From positions 1-23,005 of IMG/VR virus record IMGVR_UViG_3300021962_005623: 23,005 nucleotides of DNA; one strand, 5' to 3'. The position numbers and the translations under genes were made by a program. The notes below the pieces were generated by a model that made no database searches, was not told the origin of the DNA, and saw only the letters and a list, made by a program, of their open reading frames with translations. The DNA comes from a virus. Positions 1,696-21,789 of this stretch are shown one piece after another; position 1 is the stretch's first letter; the number at the start of each line of letters is the position of its first letter.

Positions 1696-3597
1696 ATGGT
1701 AGCCAAACAACTGAATGAACTAGGTCAAAAGATTTTCGAGCAACGGTATGCCTATCCCGGCGAAAAATCTTATCAAGATAGATGCAAGGCAATTGCAAAG
1801 CATATAGCTTCTGCTGAGAATGATGACGAGAAGGAGAAATGGGAGGAGAACTTCTACAAAATCCTAGGCTCTGGAGACTTTGTCCCCGGAGGTCGTATCA
1901 TATTCGGTGCTGGTCGTAACAAGCAAAACATGCTTAATTGTTACGTCCTTGAGCCTGAGGATAGCGTAGAGTCTATCGGCAAGGTTGTTAGCGACATGTA
2001 CAAAATCTCCTGTGGTGGAGGTGGTGTAGGCTTCAACTTTAGCAAGATCCGTCCTAAGGGTGATGATATTCAAAACATTAAGCATTCAGCACCCGGATCA
2101 GTTTCGGTAATGCGAATGATCAATGAGATTGGTAATCATGTTCGTGCCGGAAAGAATCGTCGCACCGCTCTCATGGCAGAACTGAACGTAACTCATCCAG
2201 ACACTCTTGAGTTCCTCCATGTTAAGCTGGACCTTGGTGAGCTTACTAACTTTAACATATCTGTAGCCATCACTGATCGTTTCGTAGAGGCTTGCGAGAA
2301 TAATGAGGAATGGTACTTCACATTTAACAATCGCAAGTATTATATCTATCAGATGGATCGTGTAAGCCCAGACGGCAATAGCACGACCATCAATGTTGTA
2401 GGTCTTGATGCCGATGATGCAATAGCAAGAGCAAGAAATCATCAACTACGTCATCCTGATGACAAGTTTGAGAATGTAATGCGTTACACTCTCATGGCTA
2501 AGGATCTATGGGATAAGCTTTGGTACAATGCTGTAAATTCTGGTGATCCCGGAATATTCAACATTGATCTTACTAACAGAATGACCAACGTTTCATACTT
2601 TGAACGTATGAACGCTACCAATCCTTGTGGCGAGATTCCACTCCCTGCTTATGGAAATTGTTGCCTAGGTAATATCAATCTTGCTAACATGGTCGTAGAT
2701 GGCGAGGTTGATTGGAGAAGGCTTGCTGCTGCTGTAAGAGGTGGTGTACGTCTTCTTGATAACGTTCTTACTGTTAATCACTATCCAATTACCGAATGCC
2801 GTGAGGTTGGTCAGAAATCTCGTCGTATCGGTCTTGGTGTAATGGGTCTTCACTACATGCTTATTGATTTAGGTCTCAAGTATGGTTCAGAGAAGTGCTT
2901 AGAGTTCCTAGAGAGACTGTTCGCCACAATTCGTGACGAGGCATACAAGACTTCAGTATACCTTGCAAGAGACAAGGGTCCATTCCCTGCTTTCCAATAC
3001 AAGGCATTCCTAGACGAGGAGTATGCTAAGACTCTACCAGCCAGAATCCGCATGATGATCAAAGAGCACGGAATTCGTAACGCAGTAATGCTTACAGTTC
3101 CTCCTACTGGAACTATCAGTATGGTTATGGGTGTATCCAGCGGAATTGAGCCAATCTTCTCTGCTATGTACAAGCGTCGTTTCCGTGAAGGAAATACTTG
3201 GAGAGAGACGGTTGTTCTTGATCCTCTATTCAAGAAGTATATGGAGCAAAAGAAGTCCCTTGAAAACTTCGTAGGAGCTTACGATGTAACTCCTGAGGAG
3301 CATATGAAGGTACAGGCTACGATTCAGAGATATATTGACAGTGCAGTTAGCAAGACCATCAATCTTCCTAATAGTGCAAAAGCCGAAGATTTCTCTGAGC
3401 AAGCACTTAAGTATGCCCCATATCTTAAGGGACTCACAATTTACCGTGCTGGATCCAAGGGTATGGAACCTCTAGAGGCTATTGCTTTAACTGAGGAAAA
3501 TATTGAGAAGTATGCCAAGCCATTGATGCAAACTCCTGTTGTAGAAGAAGTTGCAACAGCAGAGGTCTGCAAGATAGGTGGAGAGTGTGGAGCCTAA
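1696..3597 (+). CDS. nrdJ: Adenosylcobalamin-dependent (class II) ribonucleoside reductase
   Basis: The 633-residue protein reduces ribonucleotides to deoxyribonucleotides. The active-site set is visible: first redox cysteine C82 (NCYVLE), the glycine-rich SCGGGGVGFNFSKIRPKG (105-121), the radical-site NPCGE with C311 and E313, the second redox cysteine C322 eleven residues later, and the phosphate-binding PPTGTIS (469-475). The C-terminus ends in CKIGGEC (C625 and C631), the usual swinging thiol pair. The GGGVGFNFS context and absence of a small-subunit gene nearby fit class II, which needs vitamin B12 and no oxygen-dependent radical subunit. Residues about 205-262 (YYIYQMDRVSPDG onward) look like an extra segment before the KDLWDKLW helix. 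Its codon use looks less A/T-biased than the sugar cassette downstream. It starts at ATG two bases after the gp46 stop, without a clear Shine-Dalgarno site. Confidence 0.95.
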   Translation: MVAKQLNELGQKIFEQRYAYPGEKSYQDRCKAIAKHIASAENDDEKEKWEENFYKILGSGDFVPGGRIIFGAGRNKQNMLNCYVLEPEDSVESIGKVVSDMYKISCGGGGVGFNFSKIRPKGDDIQNIKHSAPGSVSVMRMINEIGNHVRAGKNRRTALMAELNVTHPDTLEFLHVKLDLGELTNFNISVAITDRFVEACENNEEWYFTFNNRKYYIYQMDRVSPDGNSTTINVVGLDADDAIARARNHQLRHPDDKFENVMRYTLMAKDLWDKLWYNAVNSGDPGIFNIDLTNRMTNVSYFERMNATNPCGEIPLPAYGNCCLGNINLANMVVDGEVDWRRLAAAVRGGVRLLDNVLTVNHYPITECREVGQKSRRIGLGVMGLHYMLIDLGLKYGSEKCLEFLERLFATIRDEAYKTSVYLARDKGPFPAFQYKAFLDEEYAKTLPARIRMMIKEHGIRNAVMLTVPPTGTISMVMGVSSGIEPIFSAMYKRRFREGNTWRETVVLDPLFKKYMEQKKSLENFVGAYDVTPEEHMKVQATIQRYIDSAVSKTINLPNSAKAEDFSEQALKYAPYLKGLTIYRAGSKGMEPLEAIALTEENIEKYAKPLMQTPVVEEVATAEVCKIGGECGA

Positions 3598-5568: not shown

Positions 5569-5985
5569 TTGAAAGTTAATGTTAAAAATATAGATAAAGA
5601 CGTTAATTTTAGCTTGGTTAATGATAAAAATCATATTTATCGTTTAATTGAGAGTTCTAACATTAAGACAGTAAACTTAGGACATAAGAAATTTATCCTA
5701 TATCTGTCTACAAACCTGCATAGAGACGCTACCAAGTGTGATGGGGTAACGTACCTAGACGAAGGAAAGATCTTCCTAGAGGCCACTCTGGACGATTCTA
5801 GGGCTAGGGAAACCTTGATTCATGAGATCTTTCACTGTATATTACATTTATGTGGCTTAGATGGCGAAGAAGAAATTAAAATTAAGAATGAGCCGTTAAC
5901 CGAAAGATTAACAACAGGATTAATTTTATTTATGAACTTGAATCCTGAGCTAACTGATCTATTATACAGAGGCCAAAAACTATGA
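5569..5985 (+). CDS. HExxH zinc-metallopeptidase-like protein
   Basis: This 138-residue protein carries a gluzincin-type helix LIHEIFHCILH with H85, E86 and H89, and a second helix containing E112 (LTERLTTGL) that could be the third zinc ligand. This layout is seen in small phage and prophage proteins related to the ImmA/IrrE and SprT-like metallopeptidases. The N-terminal half has no motif I recognise. It begins with TTG behind a good AGGGGG site. It lies between helicase and a probable recombination mediator, overlapping the latter by ATGA. The substrate cannot be deduced; a role in protein turnover at replication forks or against a host repressor would be speculation. Peptidase fold is likely, activity unproven. 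Confidence 0.75.
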   Translation: MKVNVKNIDKDVNFSLVNDKNHIYRLIESSNIKTVNLGHKKFILYLSTNLHRDATKCDGVTYLDEGKIFLEATLDDSRARETLIHEIFHCILHLCGLDGEEEIKIKNEPLTERLTTGLILFMNLNPELTDLLYRGQKL

Positions 5986-7974: not shown

Positions 7975-9150
7975 ATGTCTGAAAAACTTAAAATATTGGT
8001 AGTGAAGGCTAACGATGGAGGCTGTGCATACTACAGAGCTATCAGTCCCTTCTCTAAGTTACAAGAGCTATACTCTGATAAGGTAGAAGTTATTATTGAA
8101 GAGAATCCTTTAAAATGGCCCGAACCCGGAAAAAAAGTTGAAGGATGGGAAGAAGATCATAGCATGATAAAAAATACTCATGTTGTCTTCATTAATAACT
8201 TAAATAATAGAGGTGCTCAATACACAGCTAGACTTGTAGGTTTAGGTAAACAATATGGTAAGTTTGTACACTTTGATACAGACGATCTATTAACAGAATT
8301 GTATGAAGAGCATAAGTTGGCAGGCGTGTACAAAGATCAAGGATTATCTGAAATAACTAAATTTATTTATTCAAACTGTGATCTTGTAACTGTGACTCAA
8401 TTAAAATTTGCAGAAAGAATTAAACCTTTTTGCACTAAAGTATTAGCAGTAATTAAAAACGCAATAGATTATAACTTACCAGCATGGAGATTTCAAAAAC
8501 AATCATCTAAATTTGTTAGAATTGGTTGGGCTGGCGGAATTCATCACAACCCGGACGTAAAAGTATTTGCAGGTGTTCCTCATTTGGTCAATCAAAAAGT
8601 GGGGCGAGAAAACGTTCGCTGGGATTTTTATGGTCATCCTCCTATGCCACCTCCCGGACAGAAAAAAGACTGGCAGTTTGAGGCATGGGATCACTACAGA
8701 ACAGAGCTTTTGAGAGGGTTTAAAGGACAGCAGAACTGGGGTATTCATTATGCCCTTCCTCCAAATGACTATGGAGCCTTCTATGCAAACATGGATATAG
8801 CTATTGCGCCACTTAAAATGAATCCATTCAACGATTCAAAGTCAGATATAAAAGTAGCAGAAGCTGGTAGATACGCTGCGCCTCTTGTCGCTTCAAACGT
8901 AGGTTGTTACAATGAAACGATACATAATGGTAAAACTGGTTATTTAATTGATCCTGATGCTCCAAAAACTGAATGGGTGAGGATTCTTACTAAAGTTTGT
9001 AAAGATCACAAACACAGAGAAGAAATAGGTAGAAATTTAAAAGCAGTCACAGATGAATTATTTGATTTAAATAAAGTAGTTAAACAAAGATTGGACATCT
9101 ATGAACAATCTTTTAAAATGTTGGGATGGGATCCTAGGAGTAAATCATGA
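7975..9150 (+). CDS. Glycosyltransferase, GT-B fold (GT4/GT1-like)
   Basis: The 391-residue protein has the two-lobed layout of a GT-B glycosyltransferase. The N-terminal lobe starts with LKILVVKANDGGCAYYR and has an HFDTDD segment. The C-terminal lobe carries the donor-binding region, where AEAGRYAAPLVASNVG followed by NGKTGYLIDPD (about 297-332) matches the E-x-x-A-x-G-x-P-V/L-V and G-x-x-G-x-L motifs of GT4 enzymes. It would transfer a sugar from a nucleotide donor; the donor and acceptor cannot be read. It is the first gene after the terminator and the promoter-like element. It is read into the next gene by an ATGA overlap. Confidence 0.85.
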   Translation: MSEKLKILVVKANDGGCAYYRAISPFSKLQELYSDKVEVIIEENPLKWPEPGKKVEGWEEDHSMIKNTHVVFINNLNNRGAQYTARLVGLGKQYGKFVHFDTDDLLTELYEEHKLAGVYKDQGLSEITKFIYSNCDLVTVTQLKFAERIKPFCTKVLAVIKNAIDYNLPAWRFQKQSSKFVRIGWAGGIHHNPDVKVFAGVPHLVNQKVGRENVRWDFYGHPPMPPPGQKKDWQFEAWDHYRTELLRGFKGQQNWGIHYALPPNDYGAFYANMDIAIAPLKMNPFNDSKSDIKVAEAGRYAAPLVASNVGCYNETIHNGKTGYLIDPDAPKTEWVRILTKVCKDHKHREEIGRNLKAVTDELFDLNKVVKQRLDIYEQSFKMLGWDPRSKS

Positions 9151-9890
9151 TTTACCAATGTTATTTTAAAGAAGATCAGAAAGATAAATTATTTAATTCT
9201 GAACTTTATAAACCATTTGGATTAGAGCCAGAAGTAAACCCAGACATTGTAAAAAATTGTCCAGAGCTAGAAAATTCTTCAGTACGATTAAACTTGGCAG
9301 AATATTCTGCTTTTTTAAACATTTATAAAAATGGAGTAGACACTTTAGATAAAGATTTTTGGATAGGTTTTACTTCGTATAGACAATTTGATAAATCGCC
9401 CGTAGTCTTTCATTCTAGGAAAGTCTTTGAAACTTGTTTAATGATGTCGAATGGATTTGGTGGATGGGGCTTTTATAGGGTAACTACCAGCCCTAGCGAG
9501 CAAGCAGAGTTATGTCACCCTAATATAAATAAATTTATTGTAGACGTTTTAGCTCAATTTAGAATTTCTGTACCACCTAGATTTTATCAAGACAAAGTTG
9601 CTTTATTTTGTAATTATTGGGCTATGGATAAAAGAAAGTTTAAAGATTATATAGAGTGGTCTTGGCCTATAATTCAAAAAGCAATGACTATGAGAGATCA
9701 TGTTTATGCAAATACTGGGACAGTTCTTAAAACTACATCTAAAGATAAATGGATTGGATATTTTATGGAAAGGTTATTTATCATTTGGTATATGTTAAGA
9801 GATTATTATCCTGCTAACTTTGGTCCAATATGCGGTATACTTACTGACATGAATTTTATAAAAAACTTTTCTAGATTTTATAGGAGGTAA
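9147..9890 (+). CDS. DUF4422-like putative glycosyltransferase
   Basis: This 247-residue protein resembles the DUF4422 family found in capsule and O-antigen loci. An IGFTSYRQF segment (73-81) matches the family's IGLxHYRR-like strand, FCNYWAMDKRKF (154-165) leads to an EW pair (170-171), and GYFMERLF (204-211) matches the conserved GYxxERLF helix. The family is thought to contain GT-A-type glycosyltransferases, though the chemistry is little studied. The gene overlaps the previous one by ATGA. Its end holds an AGGAGG site for the next gene, which starts immediately after its stop. Assignment is by remembered motif layout. Confidence 0.65.
   Translation: MIYQCYFKEDQKDKLFNSELYKPFGLEPEVNPDIVKNCPELENSSVRLNLAEYSAFLNIYKNGVDTLDKDFWIGFTSYRQFDKSPVVFHSRKVFETCLMMSNGFGGWGFYRVTTSPSEQAELCHPNINKFIVDVLAQFRISVPPRFYQDKVALFCNYWAMDKRKFKDYIEWSWPIIQKAMTMRDHVYANTGTVLKTTSKDKWIGYFMERLFIIWYMLRDYYPANFGPICGILTDMNFIKNFSRFYRR
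9882..9887 (+). promoter_or_regulatory. Consensus Shine-Dalgarno AGGAGG
   Basis: AGGAGG three bases before ATG 9891 is the strongest ribosome binding site in the cassette, where most starts rely on ATGA overlaps instead. It lies in the last codons of the preceding gene. Confidence 0.6.
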
Positions 9891-10625
9891 ATGAAATTAA
9901 TTTTAGATAGGTGGCAAGGTTTGGGGGATAATCTTCAAATATCTACAATACCTCGACGTATGTTTGAAAAATACGGAGAGAAATGTGTATGGATATCTGA
10001 CGCTACTTTTTATAGAAATCCAGAAATTAGGAGTTTAGTTTGGGAAACTAATCCATATATTGCTGGCTTTACAAAAGAACCCGGAGAAAGTAAAAGAAAA
10101 GACATTAATTTTGGAAAGTTTAATTGGATAGAAATGTGGGAAAGATTGTACGGGTTAGAAGAGCCTTACAGCCATAAACCAGAGATACACATCGAAAAAC
10201 CAAAAGATATATTTAATGTATCTTCCAATGTTCTTCTTGATATAAGTTACAGTGAGGAATCGTTAAATGTGAATCAAAAACATTTCCCAAACTTTCTAGA
10301 AAAACATAAATCAGTAATTAAAGATTTGTATAAGTCTTTTTCTAATAAATCATTGTTTAAAGTTGTAAATCCAAATTTATCAAAAGAAGCATCGGTTGAT
10401 TTAATATCAATGCTTTGTTCTGAGTTAGATATAAAAACTTTACAAGTAACAAATATACAGGATTACTGTAGTGTTATTTCAAATTGTTCAGAATTTATAT
10501 CGACTCATTCTGGAAATCACTCACTGGCTGCTGCTCTTAGAAATTCTTCATATTGTTTGATACCAACAAGGTATTATCACATGAAATATTTTACTTACTC
10601 TAACATAAATTATTTATTAATATGA
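9891..10625 (+). CDS. GT9-like (heptosyltransferase-type) glycosyltransferase
   Basis: The 244-residue protein begins with a strand and loop DRWQGLGDNLQISTIPRRMFEKYG (6-29), the GxGDxLxxTPxxxxL pattern of ADP-heptose:LPS heptosyltransferases (GT9). Near the C-terminus ISNCSEFISTHSGNHSLAAALR matches the family's signature in which a short strand is followed by a Ser/His loop and a helix contacting the donor. It is shorter than bacterial WaaC/WaaF (about 320-350 residues), so one lobe is trimmed. It may act on a different sugar. It starts right after the preceding stop behind AGGAGG and overlaps the next gene by ATGA. Confidence 0.7.
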   Translation: MKLILDRWQGLGDNLQISTIPRRMFEKYGEKCVWISDATFYRNPEIRSLVWETNPYIAGFTKEPGESKRKDINFGKFNWIEMWERLYGLEEPYSHKPEIHIEKPKDIFNVSSNVLLDISYSEESLNVNQKHFPNFLEKHKSVIKDLYKSFSNKSLFKVVNPNLSKEASVDLISMLCSELDIKTLQVTNIQDYCSVISNCSEFISTHSGNHSLAAALRNSSYCLIPTRYYHMKYFTYSNINYLLI

Positions 10626-11464
10626 CAAAAGTAATTTATGTTCATTTAAACTATAACAAGTTTTCTTTTTCTAAAGATTTGGTAGAATATAACCATGTTT
10701 ATGGAGAATTACCAGAATATGCTATACATAGCATAAACCAATCAAAAAAATTATTTGATGATGTTATAATACTGACAGATGAGGATAATAAAGATGACAT
10801 AGAATCTTTTTACAAGATGTGTTCAATAACTTATCCTCATTTTTCTAAAAATTCTTTTTGGTTTTTTACTTTAGCAAGATTGTTTTGTGTTTTTAATTAT
10901 GTTGTAAAAAACAAAATAGAAAAATTTATACATTTAGAATATGATAATTTAATTTATTATAATGATAATTGTTTAAATAATTTACCTAATGGAGTATACT
11001 TTACTCAAGTTGGACCAAAGATTGGATCTGCCGGATTCTTATACTCTAACTCATTGATTGCAACTAATAATTTTTTATTAAGTTTGATAAAGTTAATTCA
11101 GATGGGAGAGGATTTTTTGGCAAATGAAATTAAATCAGTACACCTTTATGAAATGGAGATGATTGATTTTTTAAATATCAATAAGTTTTGCCAGTATTTA
11201 CCTCTGTTTCCAGATGATAATTATTTTGATATTTGCAAAAAAGTATTTGATGGAGCTTCTTATGGTCAGTATTTAGGAGGAACTAATAATGGTGACCCTG
11301 CAGGCTGGTTTGGAACTCATCATCATGTTGGAAATAAATTGCAAAAAAATGAAATTGAAATAACTTTTCATGATAAACCTTATTTAAAACAAAATAATGA
11401 AATATTTGAAATATTCAATTTGCATTTACATAACAAAAAAGCTATAAAAGAGTTTTTATTATGA
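10622..11464 (+). CDS. Putative GT-A-fold glycosyltransferase
   Basis: This 280-residue protein opens with MTKVIYVHLNY, then VIILTDEDN (48-56), and has a candidate metal-binding motif HLEYDN (104-109) in place of the DxD of GT-A glycosyltransferases. A C-terminal NLHLHNK motif is reminiscent of a histidine-containing end seen in some capsular glycosyltransferases. I cannot name the family with certainty. The sequence is very rich in Asn, Lys, Ile and Phe, reflecting the high A/T content of this stretch. It sits in an ATGA-coupled run with glycosyltransferase-like genes on both sides, which supports the call. Confidence 0.55.
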   Translation: MTKVIYVHLNYNKFSFSKDLVEYNHVYGELPEYAIHSINQSKKLFDDVIILTDEDNKDDIESFYKMCSITYPHFSKNSFWFFTLARLFCVFNYVVKNKIEKFIHLEYDNLIYYNDNCLNNLPNGVYFTQVGPKIGSAGFLYSNSLIATNNFLLSLIKLIQMGEDFLANEIKSVHLYEMEMIDFLNINKFCQYLPLFPDDNYFDICKKVFDGASYGQYLGGTNNGDPAGWFGTHHHVGNKLQKNEIEITFHDKPYLKQNNEIFEIFNLHLHNKKAIKEFLL

Positions 11465-12204
11465 ATTTTATAACTGGTGATAAATTTAAATCTATAGCCG
11501 AAGATTTCTTAGATCAATCTAAACCGTTCTTAAACTTAGCCAAGAAACCAAGAATAATTTTTTTATTTACTGATTGGGTAGATGCGTTTAAAAAACAAAT
11601 TTTACCAAGTATTGATTATGAGTTTAAATTAATAACTCACAATGCTGATATGGGAGTTTATGAAAAAGATTTAGATTTGTTAAATGATCGTAGATTGATT
11701 AGGTGGTTTGGTATGAACTGCCACATTGAGCATGAAAAGCTGACTCCTATACCGATTGGTATGGCTAACGAAAAATGGCCCCACGGAGACGAGAAGTTAC
11801 TACAAAAAATAATAGATTTAAATCTTCTCAAAAAAAACAAAATATATTGTAATTTCGATATATCCACCAGCCCAATTAGACAACAAATTTTAAATCAATT
11901 AAAAGATCAAAAAGATATTGATTTTGAGTTTAGAAGATTGAATCAAGAAGATTACTGGAAAACTCTCGCATCGTATAAGTATGTCATATCTCCTCCGGGT
12001 AACGGAGTTGATTGCCATAGAATATGGGAATCTTTATATTTAAAAACCATACCAATTTGTTTAGATTGTGTAGAGTTAAAATCTTTTAACTTATTCAAAA
12101 TAAAAAGTTTTAAAAATTTTCAAATTACTACAACTGAGACAAATTTTTTTAACAATTGTGAAATTTATGATTTTGATTATTGGGAATCTATAATAAAATT
12201 ATGA
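11461..12204 (+). CDS. Exostosin/GT47-like glycosyltransferase
   Basis: The 247-residue protein contains YWKTLASYKYVISPPGNG (165-182) followed by VDCHRIWESLYLKTIPI (183-199). This is the pattern of exostosin-like (GT47-related) glycosyltransferases in which a strand, the SPPGNGxDCHRxWE loop and a helix bind the donor. An N-terminal Rossmann-like lobe is suggested by RIIFLFTDW (31-39). IPIGMANEKWPHG (97-109) also fits proteins of this type found in phage and algal-virus genomes. Donor and acceptor are unknown. It overlaps both neighbours by ATGA. Confidence in a glycosyltransferase is good; the exact family is less certain. Confidence 0.75.
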   Translation: MNFITGDKFKSIAEDFLDQSKPFLNLAKKPRIIFLFTDWVDAFKKQILPSIDYEFKLITHNADMGVYEKDLDLLNDRRLIRWFGMNCHIEHEKLTPIPIGMANEKWPHGDEKLLQKIIDLNLLKKNKIYCNFDISTSPIRQQILNQLKDQKDIDFEFRRLNQEDYWKTLASYKYVISPPGNGVDCHRIWESLYLKTIPICLDCVELKSFNLFKIKSFKNFQITTTETNFFNNCEIYDFDYWESIIKL

Positions 12205-12779
12205 AAAAATTTACTAATAATTGGTTTGATAATTCAAAAATTTTATTTGATGTTTTTTTATCGAAATATAAGAATGAAAAAGATATAAAATTTTTAGAGA
12301 TTGGTAGTTTTGAAGGTAAATCAACTTGTTATATGTTAGATAATTTTTTAACGAATGAAACTAACACTATAACATGTATTGATTCGTGGGAAGGTGGATT
12401 TGAGCATTCTGGGACTAATTTTAATGAAATTTACAATACATTTATAAGTAATGTAAATGAATATTTAAATAAAATTAAAATTTTAAAAGGTAATAGTTAC
12501 GACAAACTTTTAGACATTCAAAATTTAAGGGAGAATTTTGATTTTATTTATATTGATGGAGGACATACTGCTAGAGATGTAGTTCAAGATTCTACACTAT
12601 CGTTCCCTCTCTTAAAAGTCGGAGGAATTATGGCTTTTGACGATTACTTATGGGGACACAATCAATTACCTTTAAAAAACATTCCTAAGCAAGCCATAGA
12701 TAATTTTTTAATGGCTTATGAAGACAGTATTTCAATTATAAATTCAAGTCATCAGCTCTGGATTAAAAAAATAAAATAA
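12201..12779 (+). CDS. Class I SAM-dependent methyltransferase (Methyltransf_24-like)
   Basis: Starting at the ATG that overlaps the previous stop (ATGA), the protein has 192 residues; the frame stays open seven codons upstream, but that start has no support. The SAM-binding motif I is FLEIGSFEGKST (31-42). Motif II is ITCIDSWEGG (57-66). FDFIYIDGGHTARDV (113-127) is the post-motif strand and loop with the DGxH metal or acceptor signature of Methyltransf_24 proteins, which are frequent in polysaccharide loci and often O-methylate sugars. The neighbours make a sugar acceptor plausible but not proven. A TATAAT lies at 12189-12194, six bases before the ATG; in this A/T-rich stretch it may be coincidence. 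Confidence 0.85.
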   Translation: MKKFTNNWFDNSKILFDVFLSKYKNEKDIKFLEIGSFEGKSTCYMLDNFLTNETNTITCIDSWEGGFEHSGTNFNEIYNTFISNVNEYLNKIKILKGNSYDKLLDIQNLRENFDFIYIDGGHTARDVVQDSTLSFPLLKVGGIMAFDDYLWGHNQLPLKNIPKQAIDNFLMAYEDSISIINSSHQLWIKKIK

Positions 12780-12789
12780 TTGTTTTAAT

Positions 12790-13644
12790 ATGTATCCTAA
12801 AAAAGTTGGTATCGTATGTGACACGGGATACGTTAGAAGCATTTGTATGTCTCGCGGACACCACGCGATAAAAAATTTATTTACGAACGTAAATATAATT
12901 AAATGTAAAAGTGATTTACAAGATATAGAATTATTATTCATATTCGATCCTTTTTTTATACCACACAGGAATATTTGGTTAAATGACGATTTTATAAATT
13001 ATTGCAATTTAAAAAAAATAAAAATTATTGTTTTTTACGGAGAAAAAATATTAAATTCTGTTTTTCCTGATGCTTACCCAGTATTTGAAAAATGCTTAAC
13101 TTTTGAAAATTTGAAATATTACGTCTGGGACGTTGATGATTCTATTAAACTAAATAAAAAAATTTTGAGATACTGTCCGTCAAAATATTACGAAAATAAA
13201 ATACCAAAGGTTGAAAAAATAAATAAATGTGTTTTTATAGGTCAAATAAATACTAACCATTATGGAGAACGTAGAGAAGCTTTAAGTAAAATAAATAATT
13301 ATATTGAAACGGAAATTATAGAAAACTTTGATGGAACTTGGCAAGATTACTTAAAATTTTATTCAAAATACAAATTTTCTTTTTGTCCTATATCTGGAAA
13401 CTATAATGGACTGTCGCTGAGGTTTTATGAATCTTTATTAGTTAATTGCATACCCATTCAACAAGTTAGAAAAAATACTTTAAGTGTTTATTCAACAGAG
13501 GCTAATTTCAAAGATTGTATATTTTTTGAAGATATCGAAGAGCTTTCTGAAAAATTAAAAAAAATTGATGTGCAAGAATCTACAAGTAAAGTGTGGCTAG
13601 AAGATGAGTTATTAAAAATTTTTGTTGAGGATAATATTATATGA
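12790..13644 (+). CDS. Putative glycosyltransferase, GT-B/exostosin-like
   Basis: The 284-residue protein has an N-terminal region beginning VGIVCDTGYVRS, then a KCVFIGQINTNHYGERREAL segment (146-165). It ends with FSFCPISGNYNGLSLRFYESL followed by LVNCIPI (197-223). That last block has the layout of the donor-site region of exostosin-like and related GT-B enzymes (FxxxPxGN, then a loop, RxxEal, then xxPI), similar to the motif in the gene at 11461. There is a ten-base gap after the methyltransferase, with no clear ribosome binding site, and an ATGA overlap with the next gene. The family assignment is from motif layout only. Confidence 0.6.
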   Translation: MYPKKVGIVCDTGYVRSICMSRGHHAIKNLFTNVNIIKCKSDLQDIELLFIFDPFFIPHRNIWLNDDFINYCNLKKIKIIVFYGEKILNSVFPDAYPVFEKCLTFENLKYYVWDVDDSIKLNKKILRYCPSKYYENKIPKVEKINKCVFIGQINTNHYGERREALSKINNYIETEIIENFDGTWQDYLKFYSKYKFSFCPISGNYNGLSLRFYESLLVNCIPIQQVRKNTLSVYSTEANFKDCIFFEDIEELSEKLKKIDVQESTSKVWLEDELLKIFVEDNII

Positions 13645-14867
13645 AAAAATCACTTTTTAGTTTAGGTGAGTTATACGTTTCTGATTTTATTGACGAAAAC
13701 TCTGATCTCAGTAATAAAAAAACTGAGTTAAAACTTGTTTTAGATACTGAAGAATCTACAGTAAGATTAGAAAAAGTTCATCCTTTGCAGGATATGTTTG
13801 GGAAATACTGGTACAGATCTTCTACAAACTTTACAATGAAAAAAGAACTTAAAAATATTGTAGAGTCTGTAACTGATATTTTTAAATTAAATGATAATGA
13901 TCTATGGATTGATATTGCTTGTAACGATGGAACTTTATTAAATTATGTTCCTAAAAATTTAATAAAAATTGGTATAGATCCTGCTGATGATTCATTTAAA
14001 ATTGAATCTGAAAAACATTCTGACTTGATTATTCAAGATTATTTTTCAGCAGATTTATTTAAAAAATCAAAATACGGTTATTTGAAAGCAAAAGTTATAA
14101 CTACAATAGCTATGTTTTATGATTTAGATGATCCTAAATCATTTATAAGAGATGTATACGAAATTTTGGATGATAATGGTCTTTGGGTTCTGCAACTTTC
14201 TTATACTCCTTTAATGCTTGAACAAATTGCTTTCGACAATATTTGTCATGAGCATGTGTACTATTACTCATTATACAATATAAAAAATTTACTAAATGAT
14301 TGCGGATTTGATGTTGTAGATACTTGTTTGAATGATGTTAACGGTGGCTCTTTTAGAATTTATGCAATGAAGTCCTCTTGTGATAAATTAAATTTTGGGA
14401 CTCACCCATATAGAGATTGCTGTAATTTTAGAGTGAATTCATTGTTAGAGTATGAAAAAACTCTTAAGTTAGACGATCCAAAAACTTGGGAAAACTTTTA
14501 CGATAAAATAAATGATTTAAAGAAAAAGACTGTAAGCTTTATAACAAACGAGAAAGCAAAAGGTAAAAAAATTTGGGCATATGGAGCTTCTACTAAAGGA
14601 AATACATTACTTCAATATTTTGGTTTAGATTCAAGTATGATTGACGCAATTGCAGAAAGAAACCCTTTAAAATTTGGACTAAAAACAATAGGTACAAATA
14701 TTCCTATTGTGAGTGAAGAAGATATGAGAGAAGCTCAACCAGATTACTTACTAATTTTACCTTGGCAATTTATAAAAGAGTTTAAAGTTAGAGAACAAGA
14801 TTATCTAAATAAAGGTGGAAAGTTTATCGTTCCATGTCCAACTTTTTATGTAGTTGAATCTAATTGA
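13641..14867 (+). CDS. NDP-hexose C-methyltransferase-like protein, zinc site lost
   Basis: This 408-residue protein has the three-part plan of sugar C-methyltransferases such as TylCIII. The N-terminal part (SLGELYVSDFI) corresponds to the usual zinc-binding domain. The SAM domain has motif I DIACNDGTLL (91-100) and GIDP (111-114), and the catalytic-region motif HEHVYYYS (203-210). The C-terminal Rossmann-like domain has WAYGASTKGN (312-321), AERNP and LILPW. The N-terminal CxxC pairs that normally bind zinc are absent, and the protein begins at LGE, so that domain is shortened. Members methylate a carbon of 4-keto-6-deoxy sugars, which fits the GDP-mannose dehydratase two genes on. It overlaps the previous gene by ATGA. 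Confidence 0.85.
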   Translation: MKKSLFSLGELYVSDFIDENSDLSNKKTELKLVLDTEESTVRLEKVHPLQDMFGKYWYRSSTNFTMKKELKNIVESVTDIFKLNDNDLWIDIACNDGTLLNYVPKNLIKIGIDPADDSFKIESEKHSDLIIQDYFSADLFKKSKYGYLKAKVITTIAMFYDLDDPKSFIRDVYEILDDNGLWVLQLSYTPLMLEQIAFDNICHEHVYYYSLYNIKNLLNDCGFDVVDTCLNDVNGGSFRIYAMKSSCDKLNFGTHPYRDCCNFRVNSLLEYEKTLKLDDPKTWENFYDKINDLKKKTVSFITNEKAKGKKIWAYGASTKGNTLLQYFGLDSSMIDAIAERNPLKFGLKTIGTNIPIVSEEDMREAQPDYLLILPWQFIKEFKVREQDYLNKGGKFIVPCPTFYVVESN

Positions 14868-14881
14868 TATTTAATAATTAT

Positions 14882-15781
14882 ATGACAAACATACTAATCA
14901 CTGGATCCAATGGATTTTTAGGTAAAAATTTAGTTAAACTTTTAGTAGTTCCCAACATATTCACTCCTACTAAAGGCGATTTAAATTTATTAAATTATGA
15001 TGAAATACTTAATTACATTAATAGAAACAAAATAGAAAAAATAATACATTTAGCTGCACTTTGTGGAGGTATCGGAATCAATAAAGAAAATCCCGGAAGG
15101 TTTATGTATGAAAATTTACGAATGGGAATTAACGTCATTCAAGCGTGTAAAGAAGCAAACGTTAAAAAACTAGTAAATTTAGGAACTGTATGTTCTTATC
15201 CGAAATTTTGTGAAGTACCATTTAAAGAAAGTGATTATTGGAAGGGTTATCCAGAAGAAACAAATGCACCTTATGGAATAGCTAAAAAAACAATTATCGA
15301 ATTATCAAAATCTTACAAAAGTCAGTATGGTTTAAATGTTACAAATGTTATTCCCGTAAATATGGCTGGACCTTATGATAAATTTGATCTTTATTCTTCT
15401 CATGTTATTCCAGCAATAATTAGAAAATTTGAAGAATCTGATGATAAAATCATTTTATGGGGTACAGGGTCTGCTTCCAGAGAGTTTTTAGATGCCAGAG
15501 ATTGTTCCTTGGCAATTATCAAATGTTTAGATATTGACACGGATCCTGACCCAATTAATCTGGGAACTGGAAGAGAAATCACAATAAATAATTTAGTTAA
15601 TTTAATAAAAAAGTTAGGTAACTATACTTCTGAGGTTTTTTGGGACAAAACTAAACCTGATGGACAACCTAGAAGATGTTTAGATATTTCAAGAGCTAAA
15701 TCTATTTTAGATTGGTCTCCCTCTTATAGTTTGGAACAGACTATCATGGATACAATTAATTGGTATAGGTTAAATAAATGA
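14882..15781 (+). CDS. GDP-L-fucose-synthase-like NAD(P)-dependent epimerase/reductase
   Basis: Taking ATG 14882 rather than the upstream TTG at 14864, the protein has 299 residues and starts MTNILITGSNGFLGKN, a Rossmann TGxxGFLG motif (8-14). CGGIGINKENPGRFMYENL (about 62-80), YPEETNAPYGIAKK with the YxxxK pair, PVNMAGPYDKFD and SSHVIPAIIRKF follow the order of GDP-4-keto-6-deoxymannose 3,5-epimerase/4-reductases. In the active-site loop LGTVCSYP the usual Ser of LGSSCIYP is Thr, while the Cys and the SHV histidine remain. The enzyme would act after the GMD encoded next door, giving GDP-L-fucose or a related GDP-6-deoxyhexose. The exact product is not fixed by sequence, so no symbol is given. 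It overlaps gmd by ATGA. Confidence 0.8.
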   Translation: MTNILITGSNGFLGKNLVKLLVVPNIFTPTKGDLNLLNYDEILNYINRNKIEKIIHLAALCGGIGINKENPGRFMYENLRMGINVIQACKEANVKKLVNLGTVCSYPKFCEVPFKESDYWKGYPEETNAPYGIAKKTIIELSKSYKSQYGLNVTNVIPVNMAGPYDKFDLYSSHVIPAIIRKFEESDDKIILWGTGSASREFLDARDCSLAIIKCLDIDTDPDPINLGTGREITINNLVNLIKKLGNYTSEVFWDKTKPDGQPRRCLDISRAKSILDWSPSYSLEQTIMDTINWYRLNK

Positions 15782-16758
15782 AGACAGCTTTAATTACGGG
15801 TATTTCAGGTCAGGATGGATCTTACTTAGCTGAGTTACTTTTATCTAAAAACTATAATGTGATAGGGTTATTGAGGAGGCATTCTTCTCCAGAACATCAA
15901 ACCAGTAGATTAGATTCTTATGGGTTAAAGAACAGATTAACCTTGGTTTACGGAGACGTAACAGATTTGCCTTCTCTATTGAGAGCGTTCTCTGAGTACA
16001 AACCTGACGAGATATACAACTTAGCAGCGCAAGCTCACGTTAAAATTAGTTTCGATCAACCTTCATACACAACTGATTCCATAGTCTTTGGAACTTTAAA
16101 TGTTTTGGAGGCAGTTAAAGCCGCTTGTCCTAGATCCAAAATTTATTTGGCTGGCTCATCTGAGATGTATGGAAATCAAAGTGATGCGGATGGATTTAGG
16201 AGAGAATCCACAAAGATGGTTCCAGTTAGTCCTTACGGATGCTCAAAACTTTATGGATATCACCTTGGGCAAGTGTATAGAAGGTCTTATGATATGTTCA
16301 TTTGTAATGGAATATTATTTAATCATGAGTCGCCTAGAAGAGGGTTAAATTTTGTTACAAATAAAGTTGTGGAATGTGCAATAAAAATAAAAAAAGGACT
16401 ATCGACAAGTTTACCACTTGGAAATTTAAATGCAACCAGAGATTGGGGACATGCTAAAGATTACGTCAATGCAATGTGGATGATGTTACAAAATAATAAC
16501 CCAGATGACTATGTTTGTGCCACAGGTGAATCAAGGTCAATAAAACAATTGTGTGATTATGTGTTCTCAAAACTAAATCTTGATTACAAAAAATATGTTA
16601 CAATTGACTCGAAATATTTTAGACCTTTTGAGTTAGACGATTTAAAAGGTGATCCTACAAAAATACAAAATAAACTAAATTGGAAAAGAACTTATACATT
16701 TGAATCAATGATTGATGAAATGATTAATTATTGGGACACTATAATAAAGCCATCATGA
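15778..16758 (+). CDS. gmd: GDP-mannose 4,6-dehydratase
   Basis: The 326-residue protein is a short-chain dehydrogenase of the GMD type, converting GDP-D-mannose to GDP-4-keto-6-deoxymannose. TGISGQDGSYLAELL (7-21) binds the cofactor. LLRRHSSP (30-37), GDVTD and YNLAAQAHVKISFDQP (79-94) are family landmarks. SSEMYG (126-131) and SPYGCSK (150-156) hold the catalytic residues with YxxxK, and LFNHESPRRGLNFVTNKV (179-196) is the substrate-binding signature characteristic of GMD. The length is slightly below that of bacterial GMD (about 340-370). Less A/T-skewed than the genes just before it, it overlaps both neighbours by ATGA. Assignment is firm. Confidence 0.95.
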   Translation: MKTALITGISGQDGSYLAELLLSKNYNVIGLLRRHSSPEHQTSRLDSYGLKNRLTLVYGDVTDLPSLLRAFSEYKPDEIYNLAAQAHVKISFDQPSYTTDSIVFGTLNVLEAVKAACPRSKIYLAGSSEMYGNQSDADGFRRESTKMVPVSPYGCSKLYGYHLGQVYRRSYDMFICNGILFNHESPRRGLNFVTNKVVECAIKIKKGLSTSLPLGNLNATRDWGHAKDYVNAMWMMLQNNNPDDYVCATGESRSIKQLCDYVFSKLNLDYKKYVTIDSKYFRPFELDDLKGDPTKIQNKLNWKRTYTFESMIDEMINYWDTIIKPS

Positions 16759-17396
16759 AACCGGAAACTCTTTACGAACGTTACTACAAAGCTTGTTATA
16801 AGCCATCAGACATGCATGAACATATGCCTAACTTAAAGATGTATGCAGACGAGTGTGAATCAGTTACTGAGATGGGTGTAAGAGGCATAGTATCAACTTA
16901 TGCTTTTTTGATGTCAAATTGTAAAAAACTTACATCAATAGATATTGTAAATCCAAGTGTACATGGAGCTAATATTCAAGATGTTTATGATATTGCATCA
17001 AGCATTGGTATGGGATTTAAATTTATTCAAGGAGATACTTTAAAATTAGAAATAGAACCTACTGATCTTCTTTTTATTGATACACTTCATGCTTACGATC
17101 AATTGAAACAAGAATTAGCCTTACATGCCAATAGAGCTAAAAAGTATATCATCATGCATGACACTGTAACTTTTGGAGAGTTTGGGCACACGGCAGAAGA
17201 TCCAGCAAACAGATATGCAAACGTAAAAGGTCTTAACTTTGCTATTCAAGAGTTTCTAGAAGCTCATAGAAACGAGTGGGCTTACGATAGAATTTACTAC
17301 AATTGTAACGGTCTTACTGTGCTAAAAAGAATTGGTGGACAAGTAGGACCAATTATGCTACAATCGGGTAATGCAAACGTTTCTTCCGTATCCTGA
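16755..17396 (+). CDS. Class I SAM-dependent methyltransferase
   Basis: Starting at ATG 16755, which overlaps the gmd stop (ATGA), the protein has 213 residues; an in-frame TTG at 16731 gives a longer reading inside gmd with no better start. The SAM motif I is TEMGVRGIVSTY (38-49), followed by SIDIVNP (61-67) and a motif III-like DLLFIDTLHAYDQLKQEL (104-121). YIIMHDTVTFGEFG (131-144) is a catalytic-site motif common to cephalosporin-hydroxylase-like and Methyltransf_24-like enzymes. It closes the sugar cassette and is the third methyltransferase in it. The next gene starts inside its last 26 bases in another frame. A sugar or glycan acceptor is inferred from context. Confidence 0.8.
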   Translation: MKPETLYERYYKACYKPSDMHEHMPNLKMYADECESVTEMGVRGIVSTYAFLMSNCKKLTSIDIVNPSVHGANIQDVYDIASSIGMGFKFIQGDTLKLEIEPTDLLFIDTLHAYDQLKQELALHANRAKKYIIMHDTVTFGEFGHTAEDPANRYANVKGLNFAIQEFLEAHRNEWAYDRIYYNCNGLTVLKRIGGQVGPIMLQSGNANVSSVS

Positions 17397-18236: not shown

Positions 18237-18643
18237 TTTTACAAGAGACTGATGACCTCTCGGACCCGAGTATGCTCCTAGCTGCTAGGGAGGCTGAAAA
18301 AAGCCCTCTAAGATTTAAGCTAGGAGCGATAATTCGTGATGGAAAGAGGATAGTTAGCAAGGCTTTCAATATAAATAAAACTCACACAAAATACGGTTGC
18401 GGAAGATTTAATACTCTTCATGCCGAAGCAAATGCAATATACAAGGCTGTGAGACAAGGTTATGATTTAAATGGATCTATCCTGTACGTTTATCGCTATA
18501 ATGGCTTACTAGCCAAGCCATGCCCAGATTGCCAGAAACTAATTAGGCAATATGGTATAGCGAAAGTAGTTTACTCCAAGGAATATTATGGTAACCAAAG
18601 AACTGTTAGCAAGACTAAAAAATACCAAGCTTTTGTCGGATGA
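18233..18643 (+). CDS. dCMP/cytidine deaminase-like zinc protein
   Basis: The 136-residue protein has the zinc deaminase signature: HAEANAIYKA with H63 and catalytic E65, and PCPDC with C97 and C100. LGAIIRDGKRIVSKAFN (30-46) is the preceding beta-hairpin typical of the CDA fold. dCMP deaminases convert dCMP to dUMP; this one is on the short side and lacks an obvious second zinc-binding region, so dCMP, cytidine or another amine is possible. It starts with GTG in a GTGA overlap with the dUTPase stop. The last 56 bases overlap the start of the recombinase gene in another frame. Confidence 0.85.
   Translation: MILQETDDLSDPSMLLAAREAEKSPLRFKLGAIIRDGKRIVSKAFNINKTHTKYGCGRFNTLHAEANAIYKAVRQGYDLNGSILYVYRYNGLLAKPCPDCQKLIRQYGIAKVVYSKEYYGNQRTVSKTKKYQAFVG
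18578..18583 (+). promoter_or_regulatory. Ribosome binding site deciding the uvsX start
   Basis: AAGGAA at 18578-18583 lies four bases before ATG 18588, inside the deaminase gene. It supports a start 56 bases before the deaminase stop rather than a later methionine. Confidence 0.6.
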
Positions 18644-19565
18644 AGAAGATACTTTAGGGTATGTTTCAACCGGATGTTTTCCTCTGAATTACGTCATTTC
18701 TGGACGTTACGACGGAGGCATTCCGATTGGAGGAATTACACAAATCCGTGGTGATTCTTCTACCGGGAAAACCTTATTTGTAACTTCAATATTAACTGAA
18801 GCTATAAAGAAAGATTATTATGCTAAATTGGTGGATGCTGAGAATAGCTTTAGCAGAAGCTTTGCTCAGAAGATTGGGATCGATCCAGACAAGCTCTTAT
18901 ATTCGTCTGCTGACTGTATCGAGGATGCCTTCCAAGACATTACAGACACGATTAAGCAGATTAGGGAGGAAGATAAGGATACCCCAATAGTCATCGCATT
19001 AGACAGTATAGCCGTCCTACCGAGCCGTAAAGAGCTTACCGCTGAGTCTTACGATAAGAGCCCAATCGATGGTGCTCAGAGGGCAATGTTAATAGGGGGT
19101 TCCCTCCGCAAGATAAACCCATTACTTAAGGCTAATAAAGTAGCTTTGGTCATTATTAATCAACTGCGCCAAAAGGTGGGGATCATGTATGGTAATCCAG
19201 AGACTCTAGCTGCTGGTGGAAATGCCTTGGAGTACTATCTCAAAGTAGACTTAAAGACCAAGCGCACAGAAAAGTTAATGGATAATGGTAAACCTTATGG
19301 GATCAAGGGTGAAGTAATTTGTTCAAAAAATAAGGAATCTATTCCGTATAGATCTTGTGAATTTGAACTATTATTTGATAAAGGTCTAAGCCCTTATTAT
19401 GGTCTTATTGATTCTCTTGCTGAACAAGGATTTATTACTAAGTCTCCCAATGGCAGGTGCCAATTAGGTGAAACAAAGTTTACTAAATCTGAATTTGGTG
19501 AACTATTATTAAATAAGACTAACAAGGACTTTGATAAGTTAAGGAAATTGTTTGGACTGGAGTAA
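18588..19565 (+). CDS. uvsX: RecA/UvsX-family recombinase
   Basis: The 325-residue protein is a RecA-fold strand-exchange ATPase. GDSSTGKT (55-62) is Walker A, VDAENSF (82-88) carries the catalytic glutamate E85, VIALDSIAVLPS (135-146) is Walker B, and IINQLRQKVG (189-198) holds the sensor glutamine Q192. MYGNPETLAAGGNALEYYLKV (200-220) matches the L2 DNA-binding loop and following helix of RecA. The length and short C-terminus resemble phage UvsX more than bacterial RecA (about 350). It would work with the gp32-like SSB and any UvsY-like loader encoded at 5982. It starts within the deaminase gene and is followed four bases later by a small hypothetical gene. Confidence 0.92.
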   Translation: MVTKELLARLKNTKLLSDEEDTLGYVSTGCFPLNYVISGRYDGGIPIGGITQIRGDSSTGKTLFVTSILTEAIKKDYYAKLVDAENSFSRSFAQKIGIDPDKLLYSSADCIEDAFQDITDTIKQIREEDKDTPIVIALDSIAVLPSRKELTAESYDKSPIDGAQRAMLIGGSLRKINPLLKANKVALVIINQLRQKVGIMYGNPETLAAGGNALEYYLKVDLKTKRTEKLMDNGKPYGIKGEVICSKNKESIPYRSCEFELLFDKGLSPYYGLIDSLAEQGFITKSPNGRCQLGETKFTKSEFGELLLNKTNKDFDKLRKLFGLE

Positions 19566-19569
19566 TACT

Positions 19570-19776
19570 ATGGAAAACTACGAAAAACTACAAAAGATTG
19601 TTGCAGACGCTATGAAAACTCAACTTAAGAGTGATGTTAAACCTACCGTAAAATATGCTTCTATAGAGGAGTATAAGAAGGTTACTGGTAAAAGATTTCG
19701 CATGACTCAAGAGCAAGTTGATCGCGGCATAAGCCGCGAGCAGGCTTTTACGGAGTTTATTAGCAAAGGAAAGTGA
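19570..19776 (+). CDS. Small conserved-looking hypothetical protein
   Basis: From ATG 19570 the protein has 68 residues and is charged and helical: it starts MENYEKLQKIVADAMKTQ and continues with YASIEEYKKVTGKRFRMTQEQ and DRGISREQAFTEFISKGK. GGAG at 19557-19560 lies nine bases upstream, inside the end of uvsX, and supports this start over the TTG at 19552. I do not recognise a family; there is no zinc or catalytic motif. It follows uvsX by four bases and is the last gene before the terminator-like hairpin, so a small accessory of recombination is possible but unsupported. Confidence 0.65.
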   Translation: MENYEKLQKIVADAMKTQLKSDVKPTVKYASIEEYKKVTGKRFRMTQEQVDRGISREQAFTEFISKGK

Positions 19777-20028: not shown

Positions 20029-20379
20029 CCTCGTAATTATGTTTTAAAGAAAGAGTACTTAAATAAAGATAGCGTTAATCGTCTTATCAAAGCTATCGTT
20101 GATAATGCAAAAGAAGATAGAGACGAAGCTAAATTCTTTTTAGACGAAGCAAAAGAGCGTGTTGAAGCTGGGTTAGCTTCTAATGAAGAATTTTCTAGGG
20201 TGGCTACTGCTGCAGCACAATTGTTAAGCAAGCTGCAGGATTCTAGTGTTAATCTAGTAAAAGCTATGGATGCTATTATCAAATACATGTCCATAACCAA
20301 ACCGAAAAACAGCCCAACCGACAAAGCCCCAGCACTTGATGATTTGTTTTCAGAGTTAAGCAAAATTCAAGAAGATTAA
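20026..20379 (+). CDS. Helical hypothetical protein under hairpin control
   Basis: From ATG 20026 the protein has 117 residues. It is strongly helical and charged (SVNRLIKAIVDNAKEDRDEAK, AATAAAQLLSKLQDSSVNLV), with an acidic C-terminus LDDLFSELSKIQED. An open frame continues upstream to 19972, but that start would lie on the far side of the hairpin and has no ribosome binding site. I do not recognise the family; small helical phage proteins of this kind include head, tail-chaperone and terminase-small-subunit types, and nothing here decides. The ribosome binding site and start codon are inside a 12-bp hairpin, suggesting regulated translation. The Clp-like gene begins three bases after its stop. 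Confidence 0.75.
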   Translation: MPRNYVLKKEYLNKDSVNRLIKAIVDNAKEDRDEAKFFLDEAKERVEAGLASNEEFSRVATAAAQLLSKLQDSSVNLVKAMDAIIKYMSITKPKNSPTDKAPALDDLFSELSKIQED

Positions 20380-20382
20380 TAT

Positions 20383-21789
20383 ATGAAAGACAACTTCTAT
20401 AGAGTTCCTTGTCAGTCTTTAAATGCAATACTGAAGGTAAAGAAGTTAAAAGAGAGAGATCAAAAGAAATTTTTTACAAATATAATCAATTACGTTCAAG
20501 AGGGTAAATCTAATGTAACCCTAATGAAGTATTATTTATTTATCGTCAATGGTTTGTTGATTGAGGAATCGGCAAACCTGTTTAAAGATGTACTGAAAGA
20601 AATAAAGGACGATAAAGCAGTAAGTTTTGCAGTTGTTACAGAAATATACAATGCAATTACTGAGATATACTTACCTTTCAAAGTTGAAGTTGTTTTGGAG
20701 CATATAAATGGTCCAAACCCCATGATACCTTCTCAAGGATCTTCACACAACATGAAAGACTTTACTGATTTTCTTAAAGATAGTAAGTTCTTTGAAGATG
20801 ATTTTAAAAAGGTAATTGACACAAATCATAAAAAGAACGAAAAGAAAAAAGAAAAGTCTAAAATTACATTAGAAAATGTTGAAAACATTAGACAATATTT
20901 AAAGGAAAATATAGTTGGACAAGACAAAGCAATAGATGCTTTGATGGAGCACCTAATGCTCTTATGTGCTGAATTAGAAACCAAAGCTAGTTTTTTCTTT
21001 GTAGGACCTACAGGAGTAGGCAAATCTCAGTTAGCTAAACTGTTTGGAGAATTATATTCTGGTAATTTTCATGCTTTTAATTGTGCAGAGTTTTCCCATG
21101 GACATGAAATGGCTAGATTGATCGGATCTCCACCCGGATTCATTGGACACAGTGAAAAATCTTTTCTCAAAGAGCTAGCAGAAAAATCCAACAAGTGGGT
21201 GTTTTTGTTTGACGAAATAGAAAAAGCTCATCCAAAGTTTTATAATTTTCTTTTATCATTATTAGACACTGGAAAAGTGCAAGATAGTAACAACAACGAA
21301 TTAGATTTTTCTAATTCTGTTTTCATATTCACATCCAACAAAGGCCAATCTGATTTAAAAGACGAATTTGTAGGATTTTACAAAGGAACTCCGGGATTTG
21401 TAACTTCTGACACAAATAAACAGATAGTTGAAAGGTCTTTGAAAACAGAATTTACTCCAGAATTTAGAAATAGAATAGATGAGTTTATTCATTTTAATGA
21501 GTTATCAAAAGAAGATGTTTTGAAAATAGCAGAGTTAAATTTAAAACCATTACCAATTAAACCAACACCAGAACTTTTGGAGTTTATTGTTGCTAATTCA
21601 TACACAAAAGAGTATGGTGCTAGAGATTTGAAGAGATTTATAAAGAAAACCGTGGCTTTAAAATTGGCAAAAATAATTTTAACTAAAGCAGTACCAAAAG
21701 ATGGTACGAATAAATTTGATTGTAAAATATTAGGTGATACTATAGAAATAGTAAATTATGTCACCCCAAAGTCTAAAAAAGCTTCTTAA
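20383..21789 (+). CDS. Single-ring Clp/Hsp100-type AAA+ ATPase with ClpC-like VGF loop
   Basis: The 468-residue protein has one AAA+ module of the ClpA/B/C D2 type after an unrelated N-terminal domain (about 1-150) and a Lys/Glu linker. Walker A GPTGVGKS (208-215), pore loop GSPPGFIG (248-255), Walker B VFLFDE (273-278), FRNRIDE with arginine fingers (361-367) and sensor-2 GARDLKR (412-418) are all present. EFVGFYKG (328-335) lies where ClpC carries the VGF loop that docks into ClpP; ClpB lacks it. Such unfoldases thread proteins through the pore into a protease or simply remodel them. No ClpP is encoded here, so host ClpP would be the partner if any. The N-terminal domain, which would choose substrates, has no family I can name. 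No clear ribosome binding site is visible. Confidence 0.88.
   Translation: MKDNFYRVPCQSLNAILKVKKLKERDQKKFFTNIINYVQEGKSNVTLMKYYLFIVNGLLIEESANLFKDVLKEIKDDKAVSFAVVTEIYNAITEIYLPFKVEVVLEHINGPNPMIPSQGSSHNMKDFTDFLKDSKFFEDDFKKVIDTNHKKNEKKKEKSKITLENVENIRQYLKENIVGQDKAIDALMEHLMLLCAELETKASFFFVGPTGVGKSQLAKLFGELYSGNFHAFNCAEFSHGHEMARLIGSPPGFIGHSEKSFLKELAEKSNKWVFLFDEIEKAHPKFYNFLLSLLDTGKVQDSNNNELDFSNSVFIFTSNKGQSDLKDEFVGFYKGTPGFVTSDTNKQIVERSLKTEFTPEFRNRIDEFIHFNELSKEDVLKIAELNLKPLPIKPTPELLEFIVANSYTKEYGARDLKRFIKKTVALKLAKIILTKAVPKDGTNKFDCKILGDTIEIVNYVTPKSKKAS

Follow-up and report, generated by a model that had tools for sequence, protein, structure and literature searches.

A phage-encoded single-ring ClpA/ClpC-type ATPase with a conserved putative ClpP-docking tripeptide and a constant upstream partner gene

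Organization of the unfoldase locus

The analyzed window is a stretch of viral DNA of 23,005 nucleotides (IMG/VR record IMGVR_UViG_3300021962_005623, positions 1 to 23,005). Judged from its sequence, the open reading frame at 20383-21789 encodes a phage ATPase in which one ring of the ClpA/ClpC D2 type follows a new N-terminal domain. A small gene, designated cl1, lies directly upstream, preceded in turn by a gene for a RecA/UvsX recombinase. The features of the locus are summarized in Table 1.

Table 1. Features of the unfoldase locus (positions in the window; residue numbers refer to the unfoldase)
Feature	Position	Strand	Remarks
RecA/UvsX recombinase, usual upstream neighbour	18588..19565	+	Pfam RecA 6e-44; PHROG UvsX-like 2e-54; in 19/23 loci
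Partner gene cl1, 117 aa	20026..20379	+	directly upstream of the unfoldase; length from the ATG matching the family start
Single-ring Clp/Hsp100 unfoldase, 468 aa, ATG start	20383..21789	+	one AAA_2 + ClpB_D2-small module; 45-member family alignment
N-domain, residues 1-112	20383..20718	+	modelled as beta hairpin (5-10, 15-20) and five helices (24-40, 47-58, 61-73, 78-95, 101-109)
Variable linker, residues 113-160, mostly predicted disordered	20719..20862	+	pLDDT <50 over most of its length; highest pN of the domains in comparison with L001
Walker A, GPTGVGKS (208-215)	21004..21027	+	G208, T210, G211, G213 and K214 invariant in the family alignment
Pore loop, PPGFIG (250-255)	21130..21147	+	residue 253 aromatic, Y/F in 46/46
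Walker B, VFLFDE (273-278)	21199..21216	+	D277 and E278 invariant in the family alignment
Sensor 1, TSN (317-319)	21331..21339	+	invariant, 45/45
Putative ClpP-docking tripeptide, V330-G331-F332	21370..21378	+	[VLIM]GF in 44/45, and in 65/66 of the neighbour-gene set; pLDDT <50 at 330-339
Arginine finger, R364	21472..21474	+	invariant, 45/45; position aligned with ClpA/ClpC
Sensor 2, GAR (412-414)	21616..21624	+	R414 in 44/44

Several other genes could be distinguished in the window and in related contigs. Between RecA and the partner gene, at 19552-19776 (+), lies a gene for a small protein with a TGKRFRMT..Q motif, which recurs in many loci and matches no known family. A conserved protein of about 200 aa is encoded downstream of the unfoldase (10129-10731 in L001, 13362-13955 in L252); it resembles a sigma factor by eye and gives a weak match to a PHROG family of unknown function. 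A long series of apparent sugar-nucleotide, glycosyltransferase and methyltransferase genes is inserted among the replication genes at 7975-17396 (+), and related contigs carry similar yet different sets of such genes at the same place. The window also encodes a B12-dependent ribonucleotide reductase (1696-3597, +; NrdJ-Z, TIGR02504, above the cut-off) and a 138-aa protein with a HEIFH motif (5569-5985, +) that looks like a small zinc metallopeptidase, has a relative in G001 and matches no NCBIfam family.

Family and genome context

A single-sequence search with the unfoldase yielded L001 (78% identity) as the sole close relative. Scanning IMG/VR with aligned AAA+ regions recovered full-length relatives sharing the N-domain, and a second scan extended this set; the family comprises at least 45 aligned members, which is a lower bound on its size. 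When the genome collection was scanned with a generic Clp alignment, bacterial Clp proteins were returned and no family members. In a quick tree the family is set apart from ClpA, ClpB and ClpC by a long stem and makes up one side of a branch with a support of 100. The complete family unfoldases are all single-ring proteins, with a median of 144 residues preceding the AAA+ module.

The records containing these genes belong to tailed phages, and replication genes surround the unfoldase. One of them, G001, encodes a terminase, a portal protein and a hub chaperone. In another contig (L246, G002:C1:45839-47263) the match to the terminase large subunit holds one in-frame TAG.

Ring architecture and ATPase motifs

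Within the unfoldase, the Pfam families AAA_2 (2e-34) and ClpB_D2-small (4e-10) each match once, both above the Pfam cut-offs, which indicates a single ring; the module spans residues ~164-441. The ATPase motifs and the aromatic pore loop are invariant or nearly so in 44-46 family sequences. An earlier reading made from the sequence only had described one AAA+ ring with a pore loop, both Walker motifs and sensor 2, and all of these elements were recovered with Pfam and in the family alignment.

The closest solved relatives by sequence are the second rings of ClpC, ClpB and ClpA, with Staphylococcus aureus ClpC first (1e-46). Among NCBIfam models the protein matched ClpA (2e-61), at a bit score of 208 against the ClpA equivalog cut-off of 993, and ClpX over a short stretch only (1e-5 to 8e-4). 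PADLOC matches (PDC-M37B and DolB) fell mostly on the AAA+ region. A single-chain structure was modelled with AlphaFold2 from the 45-member family alignment, with a mean pLDDT of 85 and a confident AAA+ module; in this model the linker at 112-157 is largely disordered. In a fold search with this model, ClpC chains from MecA/ClpC/ClpP complexes ranked first, and ClpB was nearly equal.

The putative ClpP-docking tripeptide

The tripeptide of ClpA and ClpX docks into hydrophobic clefts of ClpP (PMC7707817). In the phage unfoldase, V330-G331-F332 sits between sensor 1 and the arginine finger region (FRNRID), at the aligned position of AGF in S. aureus ClpC and IGL in E. coli ClpA; the tripeptide is absent from this place in E. 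coli ClpB. Position 330 is occupied by V, L, I or M (21, 19, 3 and 2 of the 45 aligned members, respectively), while G331 is found in 44 and F332 in all 45 of these mutually related sequences. At the neighbouring loop positions 327-329 and 333-335 the commonest residue reaches only 18-42%. Since [VLIM]GF is near-invariant and the flanking positions vary, conservation of the tripeptide is more than chance. The same pattern was obtained from loci found via the upstream gene, a search that is independent of the unfoldase sequence, although its loci partly overlap the 45-member set: 65 of the 66 readable loops are [VLIM]GF and the remaining one is VGY.

Among the bacterial Clp proteins compared, 50 have the strict tripeptide motif and 23 have no motif; in the tree, the bacterial genome sequences of the latter kind fall together with E. 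coli ClpB. These comparisons bear out two statements of the sequence-only reading, namely that VGF occupies the ClpC docking position and that ClpB lacks the tripeptide. That reading had also named a buried VGF as an outcome that would speak against docking. In the AlphaFold2 model, a single chain in which the ring face is not represented, residues 330-339 instead form a flexible loop with pLDDT <50. This low confidence fits a flexible peptidase-binding loop but does not establish where on the ring the loop lies. The loop in a phage protein of the ClpA/ClpC type is not unusual by itself, as such loops already occur in known phage ClpA homologues: IGV in RaK2, VGF in XaC1 and IGF in Atu_ph07.

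The N-terminal domain

For the N-domain, searches of Pfam, PHROGs, the PDB sequences and 50,697 phage records yielded no significant match, and NCBIfam and PADLOC offered no convincing candidate. Clp_N repeats were not detected by Pfam in any of 19 family N-domains, nor did the unfoldase match the zinc-binding N-domain of the ClpX type. The earlier description of this domain as unlike known Clp N-domains is thus upheld. Its dN/dS of about 0.04 points to purifying selection, with synonymous sites near saturation.

The hairpin-plus-helix appearance of the domain suggested a hub chaperone of the T4 gp26/gp51 type, but this candidate was rejected, as profile comparisons with T4 gp26, gp51 and gp28 and with a seven-member gp51 alignment were all non-significant (hhalign probability ≤6% against gp51/gp26). 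Moreover, a separate baseplate-hub chaperone gene (phrog_150) is present in the related phages G001 and G002. Kinship of the N-domain to a virion assembly chaperone, which the sequence-only reading had put forward as a finding that would overturn its proposal, therefore went undetected in these profile comparisons.

The upstream partner gene

A small helical protein is encoded directly upstream of the unfoldase in all 56 loci with enough upstream sequence (about 45 distinct contigs). These cl1-type proteins are mostly 108-135 aa long, and in 38 of the 56 loci their open reading frame overlaps that of the unfoldase by 1-20 bases. Four apparent gaps of 200-256 bases between the two genes result from unfoldase starts placed too far downstream. 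A search with cl1 itself revealed 69 loci, 67 of which have the unfoldase directly downstream. Of the remaining two, one (L335) lies at the end of its contig and in the other (L298) the frame of the unfoldase is broken, so the pair is present in all 68 testable loci; cl1 without the unfoldase was never found among them.

The predicted structure of cl1 (modelled on 20029-20379, without the first Met) consists of a helical hairpin and a C-terminal helix. No convincing family match was obtained in Pfam, PHROG, NCBIfam or PADLOC. Adaptor and small terminase are among the roles conceivable for the protein.

Possible function of the unfoldase

Taken together, these features lead us to regard the protein as probably a phage unfoldase that uses ClpP of the host and whose substrates are chosen by the N-domain and perhaps by the partner; both the binding and the substrates we infer. 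Six copies would assemble into a ring, and its six VGF loops would occupy the clefts of host ClpP in the manner of the IGL/IGF loops of ClpA/ClpX. The N-domain, perhaps with cl1 as an adaptor, would select host or phage proteins; the ring would unfold these and pass them through its pore to ClpP for degradation.

Several lines of evidence argue for this use of host ClpP. [VLIM]GF is conserved position by position within a variable loop, and this is repeated in the set found via the neighbouring gene. In E. coli, ClpA carries IGL at this position and ClpB carries no tripeptide. Among solved structures, the model best matches the ClpC chains of complexes with ClpP, with ClpB nearly as good. Finally, the loop is modelled as flexible, the N-domain is under purifying selection, and the pairing with cl1 is invariant. 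Redirection of host ClpP by the phage, as proposed from the sequence, is accordingly supported in part: the docking loop is real and near-invariant, and the 44 family records searched yielded no phage ClpP. The loop alone is not unusual. No paper showing a phage Clp unfoldase bound to host ClpP was found in the open-access literature.

Two other roles of the ring were considered. It might act as a ClpP-independent remodelling chaperone or translocase in virion assembly or replication, unfolding or dismantling phage complexes, as Iyer and colleagues proposed for ClpA/ClpX of jumbo phages (PMC7824862). The location of the gene near RecA/UvsX and other replication genes would suit such a role, and ClpB-type relatives function without ClpP. 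However, a chaperone working without ClpP would have no use for the tripeptide, which is kept in 44/45 and 65/66 sequences despite the variable loop; in addition, the hub chaperone of G001 and G002 is a separate gene, and the N-domain has no detectable kinship to gp51-type chaperones. We consider this role unlikely. More improbable still is docking of the loop onto a peptidase of phage origin in place of host ClpP, be it a ClpP encoded in another part of the phage genome or a different protease. ClpP is encoded by some jumbo phages (PMC7824862), and the family records are probably fragments (the longest is 106 kb). Nevertheless, no ClpP-family gene was identified in the 44 records, about 1.4 Mb in total, whereas the positive control succeeded in 12 of 14 genomes. 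The absence of a phage ClpP from these records is in keeping with the use of host ClpP. ClpS was likewise not found, in 15 family records.

A further alternative concerns only the partner and leaves the ClpP claim unaffected: cl1 may be a small terminase subunit (TerS) or an unrelated core protein that shares the operon, with no adaptor function. The model of cl1 is a helical hairpin, the overall shape that T4-type TerS proteins have. In G001/G002 the gene of the large subunit (TerL) has no obvious TerS gene beside it, and one of 19 cl1 members gave a weak TerS match (E 0.047). On the other hand, cl1 has no profile match to T4 gp16 and its fold search yielded no significant match, so it was not accepted as a T4-type TerS; nor is it ever seen apart from the unfoldase. 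On balance, this remains a lesser possibility for cl1.

Returning to the use of host ClpP, we tentatively suggest, as a more speculative extension, that the two overlapping genes form a self-contained module. The unfoldase would carry the key to ClpP, and a dedicated adaptor binding its N-domain would bring chosen host proteins (hypothetically transcription factors or proteins of host defence) to host ClpP without involvement of ClpX, ClpA and ClpC. The family makes two predictions that can be tested, i.e. VGF-mediated binding of host ClpP, and choice of substrates by the N-domain together with the partner. If true, these phages bring their own specificity subunit for the main compartmental protease of the host. 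In that case the protein, being small, might also serve as a tool for targeted degradation.

Comparison with known Clp systems

Phage ClpP, ClpS and two-ring ClpA/ClpX homologues are known, and their roles are mostly guesswork. In jumbo phages, Iyer and colleagues found ClpP and ClpS, and they viewed phage ClpA/ClpX as possible translocases or assembly aids (PMC7824862). Homologues of ClpA/ClpX in phages are thus not new; the architecture, the family and the partner gene described here are. In this widespread uncultured family, selection has preserved the putative ClpP key residue by residue, in combination with a compact ring and an obligate partner.

The phage unfoldase shares with the second ring of ClpC/ClpA the AAA+ plus D2-small module, the motifs and the position of the ClpP tripeptide, and it is 32% identical to S. 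aureus ClpC over about 320 aligned columns. It lacks the first ring, however, and has neither the N-domain of ClpA/ClpC nor a middle domain. ClpX resembles it in having a single ring, a separate N-domain and an xGF loop for ClpP (IGF in E. coli), but the phage AAA+ module is of the ClpA/ClpC D2 type and the zinc-binding N-domain is not matched. From the ClpB disaggregases it is distinguished by VGF, since E. coli ClpB and the no-loop sequences grouped with it have none.

The jumbo-phage proteins of RaK2, XaC1 and Atu_ph07 (phrog_4871) are also phage-encoded and of the ClpA/ClpC type, but they are about 770 aa long, with two rings, another N-domain and no cl1-like partner. The Clp-like phage proteins of L062, L080 and L081 also have a single ring, and two of them show distant N-domain similarity (E 9e-6 for L080, 2.5e-4 for L062); they belong to a different clade, have different neighbours and have no partner gene upstream. 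The Clp-like genes of these three loci adjoin RecA, and their loops are TGF or AGF. A 475-aa open frame in a contig from a Planctomycetota MAG (L140) also encodes a single ClpA/ClpC-type ring, with an AVGF loop, an N-domain without a match and a long branch in the tree. Phage-encoded ClpS adaptors would follow the same principle as that proposed here, the redirection of a host Clp protease by the phage (PMC7824862). There, host ClpAP receives an adaptor from the phage, whereas here the unfoldase itself would be of phage origin.
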